Shown here: positions 2,865 through 20,893 of the stretch, in pieces
How positions within the stretch are numbered: position 1 is the first letter of the stretch
Layout of the letters: the number at the start of each line of letters is the position of its first letter
Translations under genes and position numbers: made by a program
Notes under the pieces: generated by a model
The model's input: only the letters and a program-made list of their open reading frames with translations
What the model was told of the DNA's origin: nothing
Database searches by the model: none
IMG/VR virus record: IMGVR_UViG_3300024327_001041
Span: 1 to 29,627 of that record
From: a virus
Length of the DNA stretch: 29,627 nucleotides
Strand: one strand, 5' to 3'

Positions 2865-3965
2865 TTATCCTTTCATCTTGTCCATAATAAATGTTAATGA
2901 AGTTAATTCTCCATCTCTCAAAATTACAAAATATGCTTTATCGCCTATTTTTTTAGATTTTACTTTTGTAGCTAGAAGTTTCCATTTGATATCAACAAAA
3001 TCCATCTTTATAATAATATCACCAATTTTTAGAATACCTTCAGCTGGACTTCCTGGCACAACTTCTTGTACATAAGCACCATAACCATATTTAAATAAAC
3101 CTATTTTATCTTCCAAGTCTAGTTTTTTTACTGGACGGAAAACGATACCCATATATGGTCGAGTAATTCTTTCATCAGTTGGAAGTGCTAACAATTGTTT
3201 AACTGTTGACTGAACATAATCTCCGTCAATAGCAAAACCAAGTCCAACACTACCTCTGCTATTACCACCCGTAATTATCATAGTATTTATACCAACTACA
3301 TGACCATGTGAATCTAGTAGTGGGCCACCAGAGTTGCCGGGATTAATAGCTGCATCAGTCTGGATGTATGGTACGAATGGTGCTGACTTAGGTATAAACC
3401 TATTCAGTGACGATACGTTACCAAATGTAATACTAAATGATTGTCCCATCGGAGAACCAATAGCAATAACATCTTGACCTAGCTCTGGAGTTTCACCCCA
3501 TGTTAAAAAATCAAAAACTTTTCCTTCTTCAGCATTATTAATTTTCAACAATGCTATATCAGAGTCTTCATCATAATTAACTAAATCTGCTTCGTATGTT
3601 ATATCAGATTGAAAAATAACTATTATTTTTCCACCATCAATAATATTGTTTATAACGTGTGCATTAGTTAAAACATATCCATCTTCACTAATAACAAAAC
3701 CAGAACCAACGTGTTGTGGGTCTTGTTTAGGATTCATCCTCTCTTTTGGTTGTCCTTGAGGTTCACGAAACTTAAACCCACCACGTTCTTGTGGTTGCAT
3801 ACCGGCACTCACATTGCCTCTTTCTGCGTGTATCTCTACTACAGCGGGAAGTACTTTCTTTACAATACTTGTTTTATAAGTGTGGTCAGCATTGACGATT
3901 GTACTTACTCCCAATAACAGAAATGATATAAAAAAACATAATATATTTTTTTTATAGTGCAACAT
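2865..3965 (-). CDS. DegP/HtrA-like periplasmic serine protease
   Basis: A 366-residue exported protease. Residues 1-26 are a Sec signal peptide (basic MLHYKK, hydrophobic core, VNA/D cleavage site). Residues about 30-262 are a trypsin-fold protease with the full triad: His103 (TNAHV), Asp136 (DSDIALL) and Ser212 (GNSGGP). Residues about 270-362 form a single PDZ domain. Cellular DegP has two PDZ domains and DegS one plus a membrane anchor, so this is a compact one-PDZ form. A glycine/glutamine/proline-rich stretch (53-85) resembles the LA loop. In the periplasm it could degrade or refold envelope proteins, protect the infected cell or remodel receptors. Ribosome site AAGGAGCACAAG. Confidence 0.93.
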   Translation of the reverse strand: MLHYKKNILCFFISFLLLGVSTIVNADHTYKTSIVKKVLPAVVEIHAERGNVSAGMQPQERGGFKFREPQGQPKERMNPKQDPQHVGSGFVISEDGYVLTNAHVINNIIDGGKIIVIFQSDITYEADLVNYDEDSDIALLKINNAEEGKVFDFLTWGETPELGQDVIAIGSPMGQSFSITFGNVSSLNRFIPKSAPFVPYIQTDAAINPGNSGGPLLDSHGHVVGINTMIITGGNSRGSVGLGFAIDGDYVQSTVKQLLALPTDERITRPYMGIVFRPVKKLDLEDKIGLFKYGYGAYVQEVVPGSPAEGILKIGDIIIKMDFVDIKWKLLATKVKSKKIGDKAYFVILRDGELTSLTFIMDKMKG

Positions 3966-9095: not shown

Positions 9096-9195
9096 TTTAA
9101 GCCCTTTGTTTACAAAGACTTACAAAGTTTCTCAAAAAACCCTGTAAACCCTTATAAAACAAGGACTTATAAACCCTTTATTTATGAGGACTTAG
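9096..9195 (-). repeat. degenerate AT-rich repeats downstream of GAPDH
   Basis: Between the GAPDH stop and the early promoter are degenerate short repeats. On the plus strand these include AGGACTTA twice, AAACCCTT or close variants several times, ACTTACAAAG/ACTTATAAA, and the palindrome CTTTGTTTACAAAG (9105-9118). A near-late-promoter CATAAATA overlaps the GAPDH stop on the minus strand. No clear terminator hairpin with a U tract. The stretch may be regulatory or iteron-like. Confidence 0.5.
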
Positions 9196-10213
9196 GGGGA
9201 TTCTTCTTTTTTGTGAGAAAATCGAGTAAATCTATCACCCGACAGCAGTATCCATGCTCATTATCATACCAAGCGAGGAGCTTGAGAAATCTCTTATTTA
9301 GCACGTTTGTAGAAAGGCAGTCAATAACAGAAGAATATTCACTACCAATATAGTCCACGGAAACCAGTGGCTCACATGATACATTGATAATACCTTTCAT
9401 TTTACCTTTTGCTTCTTTTTCAAATACTGTGTGAATATCTTCAACATCTGTATCTGCCAATAACTCTATTGACATATCCAACAATGAAACATTTGGAACT
9501 GGAACTCTGATAGATGAGCCATCAAGTTTTCCTTCCAACTCTGGTAATACTACACCCACATTTTTAGCTGCACCAGTACTTGTAGGTATCATTGAAATTG
9601 TAGCAGCTCTTGCTCTTCGTAAATCAGGATGGGAAGAGTCCAATAATGTTTGTCCCATTGTAAATGAATGGACAGTTGTAATAAATCCTTGTTTGATTCC
9701 ATATTGTTTTTGTAATACTTTAAGCAATGGTGTCAAACAGGTAGTAGTACAAGAGGATGCTGATACAATATTATTCTCCTGCAACTTATAATCTGTTTCA
9801 TTTACTCCGTAGATTAATGTAGCATCTACATCTGAAGCTGGTGAACATACAATAACATTCTTTGCACCTGCTTCTATATGTTGAGACAGAGAATGTTTAT
9901 CAGTAAACTTACCCGTTGAGTCTATAACATAATCAACTTCCAACTCTCCCCAAGGTAATTTTGCTGGAGTGTTTCTATCAAAGTTCGGTATCAAATGTCC
10001 ATCAATGATTAAGTTATCTAACTCATATGAAATCTCACCATCAAAGTGACCGTGAATAGAATCATACTTAAACAAGTGAGCTCTAACATCAACCGTAGTT
10101 CTTGCGTTAATAGCAACAATGTTATACTTTGAATCTTTAATAAGTGTACGAATTAAATTTCTACCAATCCTACCAAAACCATTAAATGCTATGTTTATCT
10201 TTTTCTCTGCCAC
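9182..10213 (-). CDS. gap: glyceraldehyde-3-phosphate dehydrogenase
   Basis: A 343-residue, full-length GAPDH. It has the NAD(P)-binding Rossmann motif FNGFGRIGR (10-18), catalytic Cys155 in SASSCTTTC and His182 in VHSF. The phosphate-binding block DLRRARAATISMIPTSTGAA runs from about 197, and AWYDNEHGY is at about 314-322. It interconverts glyceraldehyde-3-P and 1,3-bisphosphoglycerate. The Asp that normally follows the second beta strand (AIND) is Ala (AINAR), so NADP use or relaxed specificity is possible. SCTTNC is SCTTTC and VHAYTNDQ is VHSFTMGQ. Starts at GTG 10213 behind GAGGTGGAAGA and overlaps the nuclease gene by 32 bp. A phage GAPDH is unusual; the gene looks intact. Confidence 0.95.
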   Translation of the reverse strand: MAEKKINIAFNGFGRIGRNLIRTLIKDSKYNIVAINARTTVDVRAHLFKYDSIHGHFDGEISYELDNLIIDGHLIPNFDRNTPAKLPWGELEVDYVIDSTGKFTDKHSLSQHIEAGAKNVIVCSPASDVDATLIYGVNETDYKLQENNIVSASSCTTTCLTPLLKVLQKQYGIKQGFITTVHSFTMGQTLLDSSHPDLRRARAATISMIPTSTGAAKNVGVVLPELEGKLDGSSIRVPVPNVSLLDMSIELLADTDVEDIHTVFEKEAKGKMKGIINVSCEPLVSVDYIGSEYSSVIDCLSTNVLNKRFLKLLAWYDNEHGYCCRVIDLLDFLTKKKNPPKSS

Positions 10214-10947: not shown

Positions 10948-10955
10948 TATAAATA
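10948..10955 (+). promoter_or_regulatory. T4-type late promoter
   Basis: Exact TATAAATA on the plus strand, the consensus -10 element of T4 late promoters recognised by the gp55 sigma factor. It lies 66 bp before the ATG of the GIY-YIG gene at 11022, the only plus-strand gene, and nothing else lies downstream for it to serve. T4 endonuclease genes also have their own late promoters. Confidence 0.65.
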
Positions 10956-10964
10956 ACGGTATAA

Positions 10965-10985
10965 GGGGAAATTACGAGTTTCCCC
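10965..10985 (+). other. perfect hairpin at 5' end of late transcript
   Basis: A perfect 7-bp stem GGGGAAA/TTTCCCC with loop TTACGAG, starting about 10 bases after the TATAAATA element, so it would cap the 5' end of the endonuclease mRNA. It does not cover the ribosome site near 11010. It could stabilise the transcript or act as a weak terminator for read-through on either strand. Confidence 0.6.
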
Positions 10986-11021
10986 AAATACCTAAACACA
11001 ATAACTATCGGAGTAGCTATC

Positions 11022-11621
11022 ATGTCTAAGAATACTTATACTCACTATATATACCTTCTAGTGGACGAAAACCATAAGAAATATGGTGGCGTTCGTTCCT
11101 GTAAATACATACCAGAAAAAGACCCTTATATGGGAACATCAAACCCTGTAGATACAGCTATGTCAGTTGGTGTATCCTTCACTAAGCACATCATAAAAAC
11201 CTTTGATACAAGAGATGAAGCTAATGTATACGAATCAGATTGGTTAGTAAGGGTAAAAGCAGCTCAAAGTGCCGACTGGTATAATCAGATGAATACTTAT
11301 CCGAACTTTTGTGCTCTAGGACGAGTGCCTTGGAATAAAGGCATCCCTAATCCATCTGTAAGAAAAAGAATGTTACACAATAATCCAATGAAAGACCATA
11401 AAATTGTTACTAAAGTATTAGAAACTAAAAAGAAAAATGGTAGTAATTCCAATATAACAAGATATAAACATCTTAAAGTTGAATATGCTAAAAGTCCAAA
11501 AGTATGTCCTACCTGTAATACAATAATGCCTTATGAAAGACGCCATAGGATATTCTGTAATAAATCTTGTTCAGCAGTTTATACCAATACTCATAGAATA
11601 CTTAAAAAATCTAAGAGTTAA
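11022..11621 (+). CDS. GIY-YIG homing-type endonuclease with NUMOD3 and zinc finger
   Basis: A 199-residue protein: GIY-YIG-like catalytic part (Tyr9-Ile-Tyr, Tyr21-Gly-Gly, Arg25, YMGTS at about 36-40, likely catalytic Glu71). NUMOD3-like blocks follow (VPWNKG, then NNPMKDHK at about 118-125), and a C-terminal zinc finger (CPTCN...FCNKSCSA). This architecture belongs to free-standing homing endonucleases of T4-like phages. It is the only plus-strand gene, placed between the zinc-ribbon gene and nrdJ with its own late promoter, and it overlaps the nrdJ 3' end by 11 bp tail to tail. Ribosome site CGGAG. Confidence 0.85.
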   Translation: MSKNTYTHYIYLLVDENHKKYGGVRSCKYIPEKDPYMGTSNPVDTAMSVGVSFTKHIIKTFDTRDEANVYESDWLVRVKAAQSADWYNQMNTYPNFCALGRVPWNKGIPNPSVRKRMLHNNPMKDHKIVTKVLETKKKNGSNSNITRYKHLKVEYAKSPKVCPTCNTIMPYERRHRIFCNKSCSAVYTNTHRILKKSKS

Positions 11622-13563
11622 GATCTACTAATTCACAACCCTTATCTCCCGTGCAAGCGTAAGATTGTGAACCCCTCGTATTATCTTCTAATTCATATTT
11701 AGACAACTCTTCCCAATCAATCTCGGTTGGCATAAGTTTAAGCATTTCGGAATATTCATTTTCTGAACATTCTTGATAAGGAGCTTGTTTGTATGAATGA
11801 TCCGAATAAGGTAAAAATGAGATTCCAGAAATCATATCAAAGTTTCTGAACACCCATGCACCAACATCAATCCATTCGTCTTCCTTAACAGTAATGGTAA
11901 CAGACGGTTTATGTTCACACCAATGTTCCTGATATAATTTCCAGAACTCTAATTGTTCTATAGCTGATTTATCATTTCTACATATTGCATTTTCTGCTGT
12001 TCTAATAGGAAATGAAAACACCCAAGTATGTTCTGGTTTTGTTACATCAGATTCATGTGGAATACCTTTCTCCACTAAGAATTGACACAACGGGTCTTTC
12101 TTATCACCTCTTACAGTTCTAATGTAATGTGGTGAATGTCTTGCGTGAATACCAGACGATGCATCAACTAACTGTGATACAGTACCAGAAGGTTTCACAC
12201 AAGTAATAGCTGCAGATGGATTGATACCCAATTGTTTTGCAACTTTCTTATTTGTATCAACTGCAGCTTCTTTTAACATATTTAATAATGCTGGTAGTTG
12301 ATCTTGAACAGCATAAACATCTCCTGTATCAGTACTAAATCTATCATCATAAGTTCCATTAGTATATTCATTATCCATGATACCCGTTAATGATACACCC
12401 AACAAAGCTTCCTCTTCACAATTTGTTTTCCACTCTTTTGACAAGTAACGGAAATCTGTTAGAGTTGCTTGCCATGTACCAAGTATAGATGCAAGTCTTA
12501 CTTTTTCAAATAATGTTTCTGGTGTATCCTCTGGACGAACAACAACCTCAGTCAAGTTACAAAACTCTTTGTCCCTTAATATAATTTCGGAACAAGGGTT
12601 AGTACCAAAATTGTGATTAGAATCTCTACGATCACCAAGTTTCTCAACCTGTTTCTTTGCAGCTTGTCTATTAAATATTCCACGTTCCCCCGATTTCGAT
12701 GCAATCAACGACTGCCACTCTTTTAGAAAAATACCTACATCTGGTTTCTCTGTATATGCTACAGAGTTGTTTGACAATGCACGTTGAGTTTCAGCTAACC
12801 ACCACTGTCCCGTCTTTGCATTTCTCATTCTTTCATCTGTAAGATTTGAAAGTGAAATCAATGCCGACCTACGAACACCACCGACCACAACAATCTCTGC
12901 TATCTTACACATTATATCATGGCACTCAATAGATGATAATTTTCTATCTCTTGCATTTTGGAAAATCTCTACTGTAAAACGAAAAAGATTATCCAATGGT
13001 TCTTTACCAGACGAACGCCCACCAAAAGTTTTTAGACGTTCACCTGCTGGTCTAATCTTTGACATATCCCATTTAGGTATTTGTCCAGCATATAACATCT
13101 GAATCAATTCTTTATATGCCTTTGCCCAACCAATCTTTGAATCAGCTACATGAATAGTAGTATCTGTATCAAATAACTCTTCTGGTACTTCGGGTAGTTT
13201 TTCAACTTCTCTGCGTTCTACAGAAAACCCTACACCAGTTCCACACATTAGAATAAACAAACACTCATCAAATGATCTTGTTTTGTTTACTGCGAGATAT
13301 GCACAATTATATCCTGCTACATTATCCCTTTCCAATGCATCACCAGCTGTCATCAATGACCTCATTGACGGCATGATTTCCATGTTGACTACTGCTTGTT
13401 CTAATTCTTTTCTCTGTGCCTTAATTCCTTTATGTTCTTCTAAGTGTTTCTCAAAGAAATCAAAATATCTCTTTACTGTTTCTTCCCATGTTTCTCTTCG
13501 GTTCTCATTATCGAGCCATCGGGCATATCGACTTTTGTGTATAAATTGTTGGTATATATCCAT
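11611..13563 (-). CDS. nrdJ: adenosylcobalamin-dependent (class II) ribonucleotide reductase
   Basis: A 650-residue monomeric class II reductase close in layout to Lactobacillus leichmannii RTPR. Active-site block TNPCSEI has Cys324 as the expected thiyl-radical site with Asn322 and Glu326. Cys87 (GYNCAY) and Cys335 (FCNLTE) form the reducing pair. CGTGVGF is at 107-113, and a C-terminal shuttle pair sits at Cys637/Cys643. It makes deoxynucleotides using vitamin B12 and works without the oxygen-dependent small subunit of NrdAB, so it needs B12 in the host. It directly follows thyX (1-bp gap), forming a DNA-precursor module. AAGGAG lies 13 nt before the ATG. Confidence 0.95.
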   Translation of the reverse strand: MDIYQQFIHKSRYARWLDNENRRETWEETVKRYFDFFEKHLEEHKGIKAQRKELEQAVVNMEIMPSMRSLMTAGDALERDNVAGYNCAYLAVNKTRSFDECLFILMCGTGVGFSVERREVEKLPEVPEELFDTDTTIHVADSKIGWAKAYKELIQMLYAGQIPKWDMSKIRPAGERLKTFGGRSSGKEPLDNLFRFTVEIFQNARDRKLSSIECHDIMCKIAEIVVVGGVRRSALISLSNLTDERMRNAKTGQWWLAETQRALSNNSVAYTEKPDVGIFLKEWQSLIASKSGERGIFNRQAAKKQVEKLGDRRDSNHNFGTNPCSEIILRDKEFCNLTEVVVRPEDTPETLFEKVRLASILGTWQATLTDFRYLSKEWKTNCEEEALLGVSLTGIMDNEYTNGTYDDRFSTDTGDVYAVQDQLPALLNMLKEAAVDTNKKVAKQLGINPSAAITCVKPSGTVSQLVDASSGIHARHSPHYIRTVRGDKKDPLCQFLVEKGIPHESDVTKPEHTWVFSFPIRTAENAICRNDKSAIEQLEFWKLYQEHWCEHKPSVTITVKEDEWIDVGAWVFRNFDMISGISFLPYSDHSYKQAPYQECSENEYSEMLKLMPTEIDWEELSKYELEDNTRGSQSYACTGDKGCELVDLNS

Positions 13564-15617: not shown

Positions 15618-16715
15618 TTACTCCTCTATTCTATATATACTCCCAAATGTAGTACTTGTCGCATCCTTCCACGAAACATCTTCCTGTCTCACATATCCTT
15701 CCTGTGGTATTTTTTCTGTTAAGTATAACTCCATCATCGTCAATAATCCGATAGCAGTTGTATATTCAATAGCTGTCAAATGTCTACCATTGATATCTCT
15801 TGGACGAAAGATTTTAAGATAACTACGTTCATCATCCATACCCTTACCACTAGCTGATGCATAAAGTATTACTGCATCCTTTCTGGTTTTTGGAATCTTA
15901 CTGAATATCCCTGTTAAAACTGTTTGTGGAATTTTTAAGTCATTAAAAAGAAAATCAACATAATCATGGTGTCCAATTCTTCTTAATGTTTTGTAGTTAA
16001 GACTTAATAATTTATGTTTACCATCCATTGATTTAGCAAATGTTCCTAAACCACCAGAAGTATTAAAAGCCTCATACTCTCTACCGTCAAGTGTAATCTT
16101 TTCGTATCCTGTCAATGCATCTACTGTATTGTATTTTCCATTTTCTAATACTTGACAGTCACCAAGATACTCATTGACTAAACCTTCACCACTCCATGAA
16201 GTATAATATCTTAGTTTGTTTGAAGCATTCTGTGATAATGCTCCAACACGAATTTTTACACTTGTAGGATTTTCTATATCTTTGAGTAAGTCATTTGCTA
16301 CAACAGTAGACATTCCTGGCGCAAGTCCACAATGTGGCATAGTGAAAGGAATCTTATCTGATTTAAGGGAATCTATAAACTTATCAAGTGCATCATCCTC
16401 TGACAAATCAAAGTATGGTACACCCAACTCAAAACAAGCTTTGTATAAGTTTATATTTTGATGAAACGGAAGTGCGTTAACGATAAGAGTTTTACCATTA
16501 ACGAATTGATTGAATTGAGTACAATGACCATCGTAAGTTGGTTTTGTAATATCCAACTTATAATAATCATCATCATTGATGAAAATATTGTGTTTTTCAA
16601 TCTGATCAGCTATAGATATTTTGTATCCACAGCCGGTACTATTGAGTAGTTGATATATTGTGGAGCCAATAGTTCCAGCTCCAACTATTCCGATATGTAT
16701 ATTCTCAGTTTTCAT
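15618..16715 (-). CDS. saccharopine dehydrogenase-like oxidoreductase
   Basis: A 365-residue protein with an N-terminal Rossmann fold (IGIVGAGTIGSTI, about 8-20), VNALPFH (about 80) and PYFDLSED (about 98). Next comes PHCGLAPGMSTVVA (about 129-142), the blocks of the saccharopine/lysine dehydrogenase family. NTSGGLGTF and TAIEYTTAIG fit the C-terminal domain. Members reduce or oxidise amino-acid imines (saccharopine, lysine, carboxynorspermidine), so substrate cannot be set from the sequence. An unusual metabolic gene for a phage. No Shine-Dalgarno is seen; a promoter lies immediately upstream, so the mRNA may be leaderless. Confidence 0.85.
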   Translation of the reverse strand: MKTENIHIGIVGAGTIGSTIYQLLNSTGCGYKISIADQIEKHNIFINDDDYYKLDITKPTYDGHCTQFNQFVNGKTLIVNALPFHQNINLYKACFELGVPYFDLSEDDALDKFIDSLKSDKIPFTMPHCGLAPGMSTVVANDLLKDIENPTSVKIRVGALSQNASNKLRYYTSWSGEGLVNEYLGDCQVLENGKYNTVDALTGYEKITLDGREYEAFNTSGGLGTFAKSMDGKHKLLSLNYKTLRRIGHHDYVDFLFNDLKIPQTVLTGIFSKIPKTRKDAVILYASASGKGMDDERSYLKIFRPRDINGRHLTAIEYTTAIGLLTMMELYLTEKIPQEGYVRQEDVSWKDATSTTFGSIYRIEE

Positions 16716-17551: not shown

Positions 17552-18364
17552 TTATTTCTCCAGTTGTGAATATTTTTTTAAGTATACCATATGCCCTGTC
17601 TTATCATCCTGTACTATGATAGACTGTTTAGGATTCTTCTTTGCATAACCATGAATCTTTTTCCCGTAGTCTGATTCTGTATCAATATGTTTATTCCAAT
17701 GTGCGTGTTTCTTTTTACCATCTTGACATCTTGAAAAATCATCTTGATTAACTTTAAACACTGGCATACTTGCAAATGTTGTATCAGGTGTAAAATCAGG
17801 CATAGGAGTTTGTTCTCCCTCTTCCCTCAATCGTGGCTCTGTCCTGTTGTATTTCTGTGTTACTACTGAAAGATTCTTTGTATCATTATTTAATGGATTA
17901 TTATCTTTATGATGTACATCCATCTTATCGTTCTTTTTCACTTTTCCTTTTTTCACCATTAGTCTCCTCGCTCTCAAACGAGCTGCGTTCTTTTCACGCT
18001 GCTCTGGTTGTGCATGATAATTATCATACTCTTTACGATAGTTACGTTCCGTCAATCCCATTTTTTTTCTTAATGCATCAATCTCTTTTTTAATTTCTTT
18101 TTGTTTTGGTGAACCAGAAAAACTTTTAAAAGCTTTGTTATATAATTTGAGAAGTTTTTCTCTATCAGCTGGACTACCCTTTTCTTCTTTCTTTATCACT
18201 AAATTCTTATCTGGTTTTCTACCAACTTCATAAGTAGCCTTTAATCGTTTGACGATCTTACTTTTCTTTTTCTTTCTTTTCCAAGTTGTCTTATCGTCAC
18301 CAGTACCAACTACAGCAGAACCTGTAGCATTTGTTGGTGCATCTTCTTTATGTATTTTTTTCAT
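17552..18364 (-). CDS. HNH endonuclease-domain protein, 270 aa
   Basis: N-terminal leader MKKIHKEDAPTNATGSAVVG followed by a Lys-rich region. A central HNH motif at about 149-170 (DVHHKDNNPLNN with His151/His152, then NLSVVTQKYN) is an ββα-metal nuclease fold. The C-terminal domain has FKVNQDDFSRC and SIIVQDDKTGHMVYLKK. The leader (E-DAPTNATG) looks like a phage-specific N-terminal tag and might be another head-processing site, though it does not match the F-x-x-F leader of the other island proteins. Position among structural genes suggests a virion or packaging role rather than homing. Confidence 0.75.
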   Translation of the reverse strand: MKKIHKEDAPTNATGSAVVGTGDDKTTWKRKKKKSKIVKRLKATYEVGRKPDKNLVIKKEEKGSPADREKLLKLYNKAFKSFSGSPKQKEIKKEIDALRKKMGLTERNYRKEYDNYHAQPEQREKNAARLRARRLMVKKGKVKKNDKMDVHHKDNNPLNNDTKNLSVVTQKYNRTEPRLREEGEQTPMPDFTPDTTFASMPVFKVNQDDFSRCQDGKKKHAHWNKHIDTESDYGKKIHGYAKKNPKQSIIVQDDKTGHMVYLKKYSQLEK

Positions 18365-19217: not shown

Positions 19218-19275
19218 CCTGTGCATCATAATAATCTTTAGACAATTCACCACTTGTTATAGGAGTCCAAGCCAT
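19213..19275 (-). CDS. mini-ORF, 20 aa
   Basis: ATG 19275 (MAWTPITSGELSKDYYDAQV, then stop) behind AAAAGGAAAAT. The peptide reads like the start of a normal phage protein, so it may be the remaining N-terminus of a lost gene or a genuine micro-peptide. It fills the only gap in this stretch. Confidence 0.4.
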   Translation of the reverse strand: MAWTPITSGELSKDYYDAQV

Positions 19276-20290: not shown

Positions 20291-20590
20291 TTATTTCTCC
20301 TCTGTTAAAAAATCTCTATTATCTACAAGTTTACTTGGTGACGAACTTGTAATATTTTCTTTTTTATTTTGTTTTTGTTTTTGTTTTGGTACAGGTGCCT
20401 TTGTTGGTTTTGTTGCACCTGTTCCATAAATAACTTTTATTCTATCACCTGTTTCATCAAGTTCAAATTCTATTTCTTGACAGTTTTTTAATCCACCATC
20501 AACAATATTAATATTAAAATTATATGTATTACCCTCACTTAAAACTTGTCCTGTATCACCATGTAAACCACCAATTGTTCCTTTAGGCAT
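20291..20590 (-). CDS. small structural-region protein, 99 aa
   Basis: Start placed at ATG 20590 (MPKGTIGGLHGDTGQVLSEG) behind AAAGGAATATT; the longer in-frame version runs through the rRNA-like hairpin and is not credible. N-terminal beta-rich domain, then a Lys/Gln/Pro-rich linker (APVPKQKQKQNKK) and a short tail. Not recognised. It follows the hairpin leader directly, so that element could control it. Confidence 0.65.
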   Translation of the reverse strand: MPKGTIGGLHGDTGQVLSEGNTYNFNINIVDGGLKNCQEIEFELDETGDRIKVIYGTGATKPTKAPVPKQKQKQNKKENITSSSPSKLVDNRDFLTEEK

Positions 20591-20605
20591 AATATTCCTT
20601 TCAGT

Positions 20606-20697
20606 AATTATTGCCACTAACAAGTCCTTGTCGGGTAAGTTCAGTCCCACACGAATGGCGTAGTTTAGAAATTATCCACCTGTTAGTGGCAATTATT
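20606..20697 (-). ncRNA. inverted repeat enclosing a 23S rRNA-like segment (antisense)
   Basis: Arms 20606-20621 and 20682-20697 pair over 16 positions with one mismatch (12 bp perfect: ATTGCCACTAAC/GTTAGTGGCAAT), enclosing 60 nt. Within the loop, plus-strand 20625-20662 aligns without gaps to E. coli 23S rRNA domain IV (about 1940-1977). It has TCCTTGTCGGGTAAGTTC (18 identical), seven bases with three matches, then CACGAATGGCGTA (13 identical): 34 of 38. The local transcripts are minus-strand, so the leader RNA would display an antisense copy in the loop of a long hairpin, ending just before the ribosome site of the 99-aa gene. Whether it is transcribed, and in which sense, is unknown. The alignment is from memory of the conserved E. 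coli sequence. Confidence 0.75.
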
Positions 20698-20701
20698 ATA
20701 A

Positions 20702-20893
20702 TTATTTATTTTTGTTGTGATGTACGTTCAGTGCCAACCAATTCATAATAGGCCAAATTTTTCCCAAAATAGGAAGTTTTTCAGCATACTCATCTTTCAG
20801 TGCCATCGTAAGTGCATTTGCAATTACAACGATTGAACAAGCTGTACCCCACCATGCCTGAGATGATCCCCAAGCTACCATTAATGATTCCAT
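20702..20893 (-). CDS. small membrane protein, holin candidate, 63 aa
   Basis: MESLMVAWGSSQAWWGTACS opens one clear membrane segment (about 13-30); a second weaker one may lie near 42-56 (LGKIWPIMNWLALNV). Short basic tail (HHNKNK). Strong ribosome site AAAGGAGGATATCTG. Size, topology and late position suit a holin or accessory membrane protein, but no family is recognised. Confidence 0.6.
   Translation of the reverse strand: MESLMVAWGSSQAWWGTACSIVVIANALTMALKDEYAEKLPILGKIWPIMNWLALNVHHNKNK

Follow-up and report, generated by a model that had tools for sequence, protein, structure and literature searches.

The locus analysed here raises the question of why a phage should hold a near-copy of 23S rRNA within a hairpin between two of its genes, and whether such a hairpin acts on the ribosome, on the message of which it would form part, or on neither. 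The window, i.e. the whole stretch of 29,627 nucleotides under analysis (IMG/VR record IMGVR_UViG_3300024327_001041), and the other contigs with the element belong to uncultured marine T4-like phages. The features at the locus are:

20291..20590, minus strand: 99-aa downstream gene, whose predicted product is a cold-shock-domain/OB-like five-stranded barrel with a disordered tail
20597..20602, minus strand: GAAAGG, the ribosome binding site of the 99-aa gene, recognised from sequence and kept in relatives
20605..20625, plus strand: left arm of the inverted repeat (repeat search), the 3' arm of the minus-strand RNA stem
20609..20694, minus strand: conserved 86-nt hairpin element, with the RNA 5' end at 20694 and the same length across four phage lineages
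20622..20662, plus strand: 41-nt near-copy of 23S rRNA (E. coli about 1937-1977, H71 region), from blastn
20678..20698, plus strand: right arm of the inverted repeat (repeat search), the 5' arm of the minus-strand RNA stem
20702..20893, minus strand: 63-aa upstream gene, conserved (94% in aligned relatives)
20703..20710, minus strand: AATAAATA, a weak T4-late-promoter-like motif just upstream of the stem

A 23S rRNA-like segment in an intercistronic hairpin

The two arms are complementary at 19 of 21 positions with 52 nt between them and constitute the strongest hairpin-type repeat of the whole window; the inverted repeat of 16 bp with one mismatch described in the sequence-only reading is thus confirmed, with longer arms. 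The neighbouring genes lie on the minus strand, on which the 63-aa gene is followed by the element and then by the Shine-Dalgarno sequence of the 99-aa gene. The position just upstream of that Shine-Dalgarno sequence, and with it the leader position and the orientation antisense to local transcription that had been proposed, accordingly hold. The rRNA-like 41 nt extend into the left arm and make up the 3' half of the minus-strand hairpin. The T4 late promoter has the consensus TATAAATA, and motifs resembling it are no more frequent in the window than expected by chance, which weakens the call at AATAAATA.

In blastn comparisons, window positions 20622-20662 align without gaps to E. coli 23S rRNA, with 36/41 positions identical (E-values of 4e-5 for the phage collection, 5e-4 for the E. 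coli collection and 1e-6 for the window against the rRNA operon), which upholds the near-copy first delimited as 38 nt with 34 identities and refines it to 41 nt. The versions of three sister phage lineages reach 37/41 against the same rRNA, and the 23S of Tistrella and Neisseria, the closest found, match one sister-phage version at 38/41, though these may not be the 23S of the host. A chance match is ruled out because the top ungapped score against E. coli 23S is 31 for the window, as against 13-18 when the window is reversed or other marine phage DNA is taken. A real or fragmented 23S rRNA gene is likewise ruled out, since an A-to-T change common to all lineages disrupts the H71 stem (GUCGG/CCGUC); in the stretches searched there are no other significant rRNA segments. 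The exact phage core variants GTAAGTTCAGTCCCACACGAATGG and GGTAAGTTCCGTCCNACACGAA occur in none of the GTDB species genomes searched, and hence neither a provirus nor an identical host 23S was found there. A match in Paenibacillus phage Pd_22F was set aside, as that record holds a long ordinary 23S stretch and no comparable hairpin.

Distribution among phages and exchange at the slot

Scans of IMG/VR with the window's own record excluded recovered seven further viral contigs carrying an 86-nt version at the same place, the same seven being returned by each of four scans, two with the rRNA-like core, one with the left arm and one with the non-rRNA right side. Given that these contigs have seven different IMG/VR record numbers, an assembly chimera is ruled out; absence from all related phages, which the sequence-only reading had named, together with random decay of the match, as telling against itself, is contradicted by the same seven carriers. 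They resolve into four lineages: the window with L002 and L003 (almost identical at the site), L006 with L008, L007 with L010, and L009. In all carriers the element occupies the same slot, after the 63-aa gene and ahead of the next gene's ribosome binding site, and no second full copy was detected in the records searched, there being one slot only.

Pairwise, the four lineages differ at 2-5 of the 86 bases, with the length being exactly 86 nt throughout. Between carrier lineages the upstream gene has diverged at 20-50% of its fourfold sites, and the 99-aa protein of the window is 40-70% identical to its counterparts in the three other lineages. About seven positions vary within the 86 nt, only one of them in the 41-nt rRNA-like part, and the non-rRNA part of the element is likewise nearly invariant. 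A change in the rRNA-like part that is specific to the window's lineage removes one pair with the rRNA. A coding role is rejected on account of indels between lineages in the left flank, some of which do not keep to multiples of three. A further difference was seen near 19249-19253, where about 176 nt present in L002, L003 and L009 are missing from the window.

The element replaces a hairpin, given that relatives without it (L034-L037, L039, L057 and L058) hold a short GC-rich hairpin with a G-rich stem at the same position, several of them with a T run. L028 also has the short hairpin, its contig being cut off inside it; in L058 an additional gene precedes the short hairpin, and L059 has no clear hairpin at the slot. 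As the upstream sequence of L028 agrees at about 99% with that of L027, which bears the element, the two alleles swap, and the tree built from the upstream flank requires the site to have switched between element and short hairpin at least three times. In view of these two observations, the conservation cannot be attributed entirely to selection on four long-separated lineages; the low divergence of the element may partly stem from recent exchange between phages. The contigs L028, L038, L040, L009 and L007 break off within or close to the 63-aa gene and the hairpin slot, a pattern to be expected where several alleles of a site coexist in the population. With respect to the idea of an attachment site, no integrase was noticed among the minority of the window's ORFs that were scanned.

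The strand of the folded RNA

The minus-strand RNA is predicted to fold stably in all lineages, with a minimum free energy of -33 to -38 kcal/mol, whereas the plus-strand fold is weaker, at about -20 to -22 in two of the four. The minus-strand consensus fold comprises a 16-bp stem, a 7-nt bulge, an inner stem and an apical hairpin. At all three variable pairs (3/3) the minus strand has C-G/U-G where the plus strand would have A.C, save for a broken C.U in the window's lineage, and the fixed G-U pairs of the minus strand are similarly A.C on the plus strand. Compensatory double changes, the covariation that the sequence-only reading had asked for, were found at no pair across the four lineages, and hence the minus-strand fold rests on the G-U evidence together with the energy. 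Thus, fold prediction and pair counts support the minus strand as the folded strand of the element.

We also reverted in silico the four fixed phage-specific bases to their rRNA counterparts in a post hoc test on three related sequences. The native pairing of the minus strand fell from 0.85-0.92 to 0.46-0.50, a drop lying in the 2-5% tail of random four-base changes, whereas the plus strand showed no drop beyond random in two of the three sequences; the same reversion was not unusual when judged by total folding energy. We read this pattern as an adaptation of the rRNA-derived sequence to the minus-strand fold.

A candidate cis-acting hairpin and its rivals

The rRNA match of the element, its conservation, its constant slot and its allele exchange are matters of observation. 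We consider their best explanation, at about an even chance, to be a cis-acting intercistronic or leader hairpin on the minus strand, with a 3' half taken over from antisense 23S sequence. An antisense copy of 23S rDNA would have given rise to that half, or supplied it by recruitment, before its adaptation to fold with the 5' half. The hairpin would act in cis on the mRNA through processing, stabilisation or leader control of the downstream gene, possibly with a bound protein recognising the invariant internal loop and apical part, and the complementarity to rRNA would reflect where the sequence came from, not how it works. A structured leader ahead of a cold-shock-like gene would also suit autoregulation. 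A pure cis role nevertheless leaves the near-perfect retention of rRNA complementarity without explanation.

A first rival, raised in the sequence-only reading, is a trans-acting antisense RNA, in which the minus-strand hairpin would pair with 23S positions ~1937-1977 in the free or assembling 50S subunit, with the effect of blocking assembly, shutting off host translation or tethering phage mRNA, perhaps following trimming of the 16-bp stem by RNase III. The predicted duplex with 23S comprises 17 + 20 pairs with one mismatch (37/38, wobbles counted) at -78 to -88 kcal/mol, as compared with about -32 to -34 for self-folding. Moreover, one of the fixed departures, a plus-strand change of G to A relative to rRNA, still lets the minus strand form a U-G pair with rRNA, and the rRNA-like part has a single variable position. 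However, the complementary segment is locked inside the hairpin, its 23S target is buried in the folded ribosome core, and no precedent was found in the open-licence papers searched. The cis-acting hairpin is further favoured over an anti-ribosome role because the part unrelated to rRNA is nearly invariant too, because the window's lineage has one mismatch more against rRNA than the others and so loses a pair, and because sister phages use an ordinary hairpin in the same slot. We hold the trans-acting reading to be unlikely, and more doubtful still its specific form, in which an antisense RNA released from or presented by the mRNA leader would pair with H71 of the host 23S and interfere with 50S assembly or function.

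A neutral or selfish allele, i.e. an rRNA-derived palindrome spreading by recombination at a tolerant intergenic site and little diverged owing to its recent spread, would fit the three or more state changes on the flank tree, the near-identity of L028 and L027 upstream and the several contigs that end near the slot; we regard it as rather unlikely, in view of the constant 86-nt length, differences that spare nearly all pairs, departures from rRNA that favour the minus-strand fold, and a copy number of one full element in the records searched. An element working as DNA, be it a recombination or a protein-binding palindrome for which the RNA is irrelevant, could likewise draw on the strong inverted repeat and the allele exchange at the site, but the strand asymmetry of the pair evidence makes it improbable. 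The converse possibility, that a plus-strand transcript mimics H71 as a decoy for an rRNA-binding protein or modification enzyme, had been entertained in the sequence-only reading. In its favour, the plus strand carries the rRNA sequence in sense orientation. Since the pair evidence places the folded RNA on the minus strand, where the neighbouring genes also lie, and since the broken H71 stem, the A.C mispairs of the variable positions and the poor plus-strand fold of two of the four lineages all weigh against it, such a decoy is very improbable.

Comparison with known RNAs and the gene neighbourhood

No match to any of 4227 Rfam families was obtained at 20605-20698 above the gathering threshold or with E below 1, nor at gathering scores for L057, L008, L047 and L046. 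The statement of the sequence-only reading that it knew of no phage element of this kind therefore stands for Rfam and for the open-licence papers covered. Elsewhere in the window, Rfam gave a sub-threshold match to the SymR antitoxin RNA at 10955-11027 on the minus strand (31.1 bits, E = 0.029), which overlaps the start of a plus-strand 199-aa ORF at 11022. The window holds no tRNA or tmRNA. The element does not qualify as an intrinsic terminator, its stem being followed by AAUAAUUACUGAAAGG with no T run, and the terminator scan picked up merely a small alternative stem within it. The terminator-like hairpins of the sister phages share its position immediately before GAAAGG, but their G-rich stem is short and in several comes with a T run, in contrast to the long stem of the element with its rRNA-derived half.

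Among known leaders, those of cspA and the r-proteins resemble the element in being structured RNAs directly before a Shine-Dalgarno sequence, and the product downstream of the element resembles an RNA-binding cold-shock barrel. The r-protein leaders also borrow features of rRNA; however, the transcribed strand of the element carries the borrowed rRNA in antisense orientation, and no known leader family matches it. T4-like phages produce further small RNAs of unclear function, the stable RNAs C and D of T4, to which the element can be likened by description and not by sequence; to our knowledge they have no rRNA complementarity. A regulatory RNA is also present in related marine myophages of the Melnitz type in the form of a glutamine riboswitch (PMC9004378), but there is no riboswitch match at the element. 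What sets the element apart is a nearly invariant phage hairpin with 41 nt antisense to the subunit-interface region of 23S rRNA. Contact with the ribosome, if it occurs, would represent a new phage route to acting on translation; a cis role would make the element a case of rRNA sequence taken into a regulatory hairpin of a virus, in competition with simple hairpins at a single exchangeable locus.

The AlphaFold model of the 99-aa protein has five strands, with a pLDDT of about 80-90 over the first 50 residues, and its best PDB matches are cold-shock domains, although weak (TM 0.41-0.46, E about 0.03). Pfam returned no family for this protein of the window and no cold-shock family among eight members; accordingly, its likeness to a cold-shock-like barrel is a structural prediction. 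The 63-aa upstream protein belongs to no known family.

As for the phage itself, the helicase is nearest to those of Methylophilales phage Melnitz and cyanophages, and a DUF6267 protein matches Melnitz, cyanophages and Pelagibacter phage HTVC008M. Other minus-strand genes of the window code for an HtrA/DegP-like trypsin-PDZ protease with an apparent signal peptide (2865-3965), a full glyceraldehyde-3-phosphate dehydrogenase with Gp_dh_N and Gp_dh_C (9182-10213), possibly an auxiliary metabolic gene, a B12-dependent (class II) ribonucleotide reductase with about 60% identity to those of Roseobacter, Rhizobium and SAR116 phages (11611-13563), and a saccharopine-dehydrogenase-like protein (15618-16715). 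An HNH endonuclease gene is found at 17552-18364 on the same strand, and within it the alignment with relatives is interrupted at about 18049-18183, in the manner of a variable or homing-type insertion.
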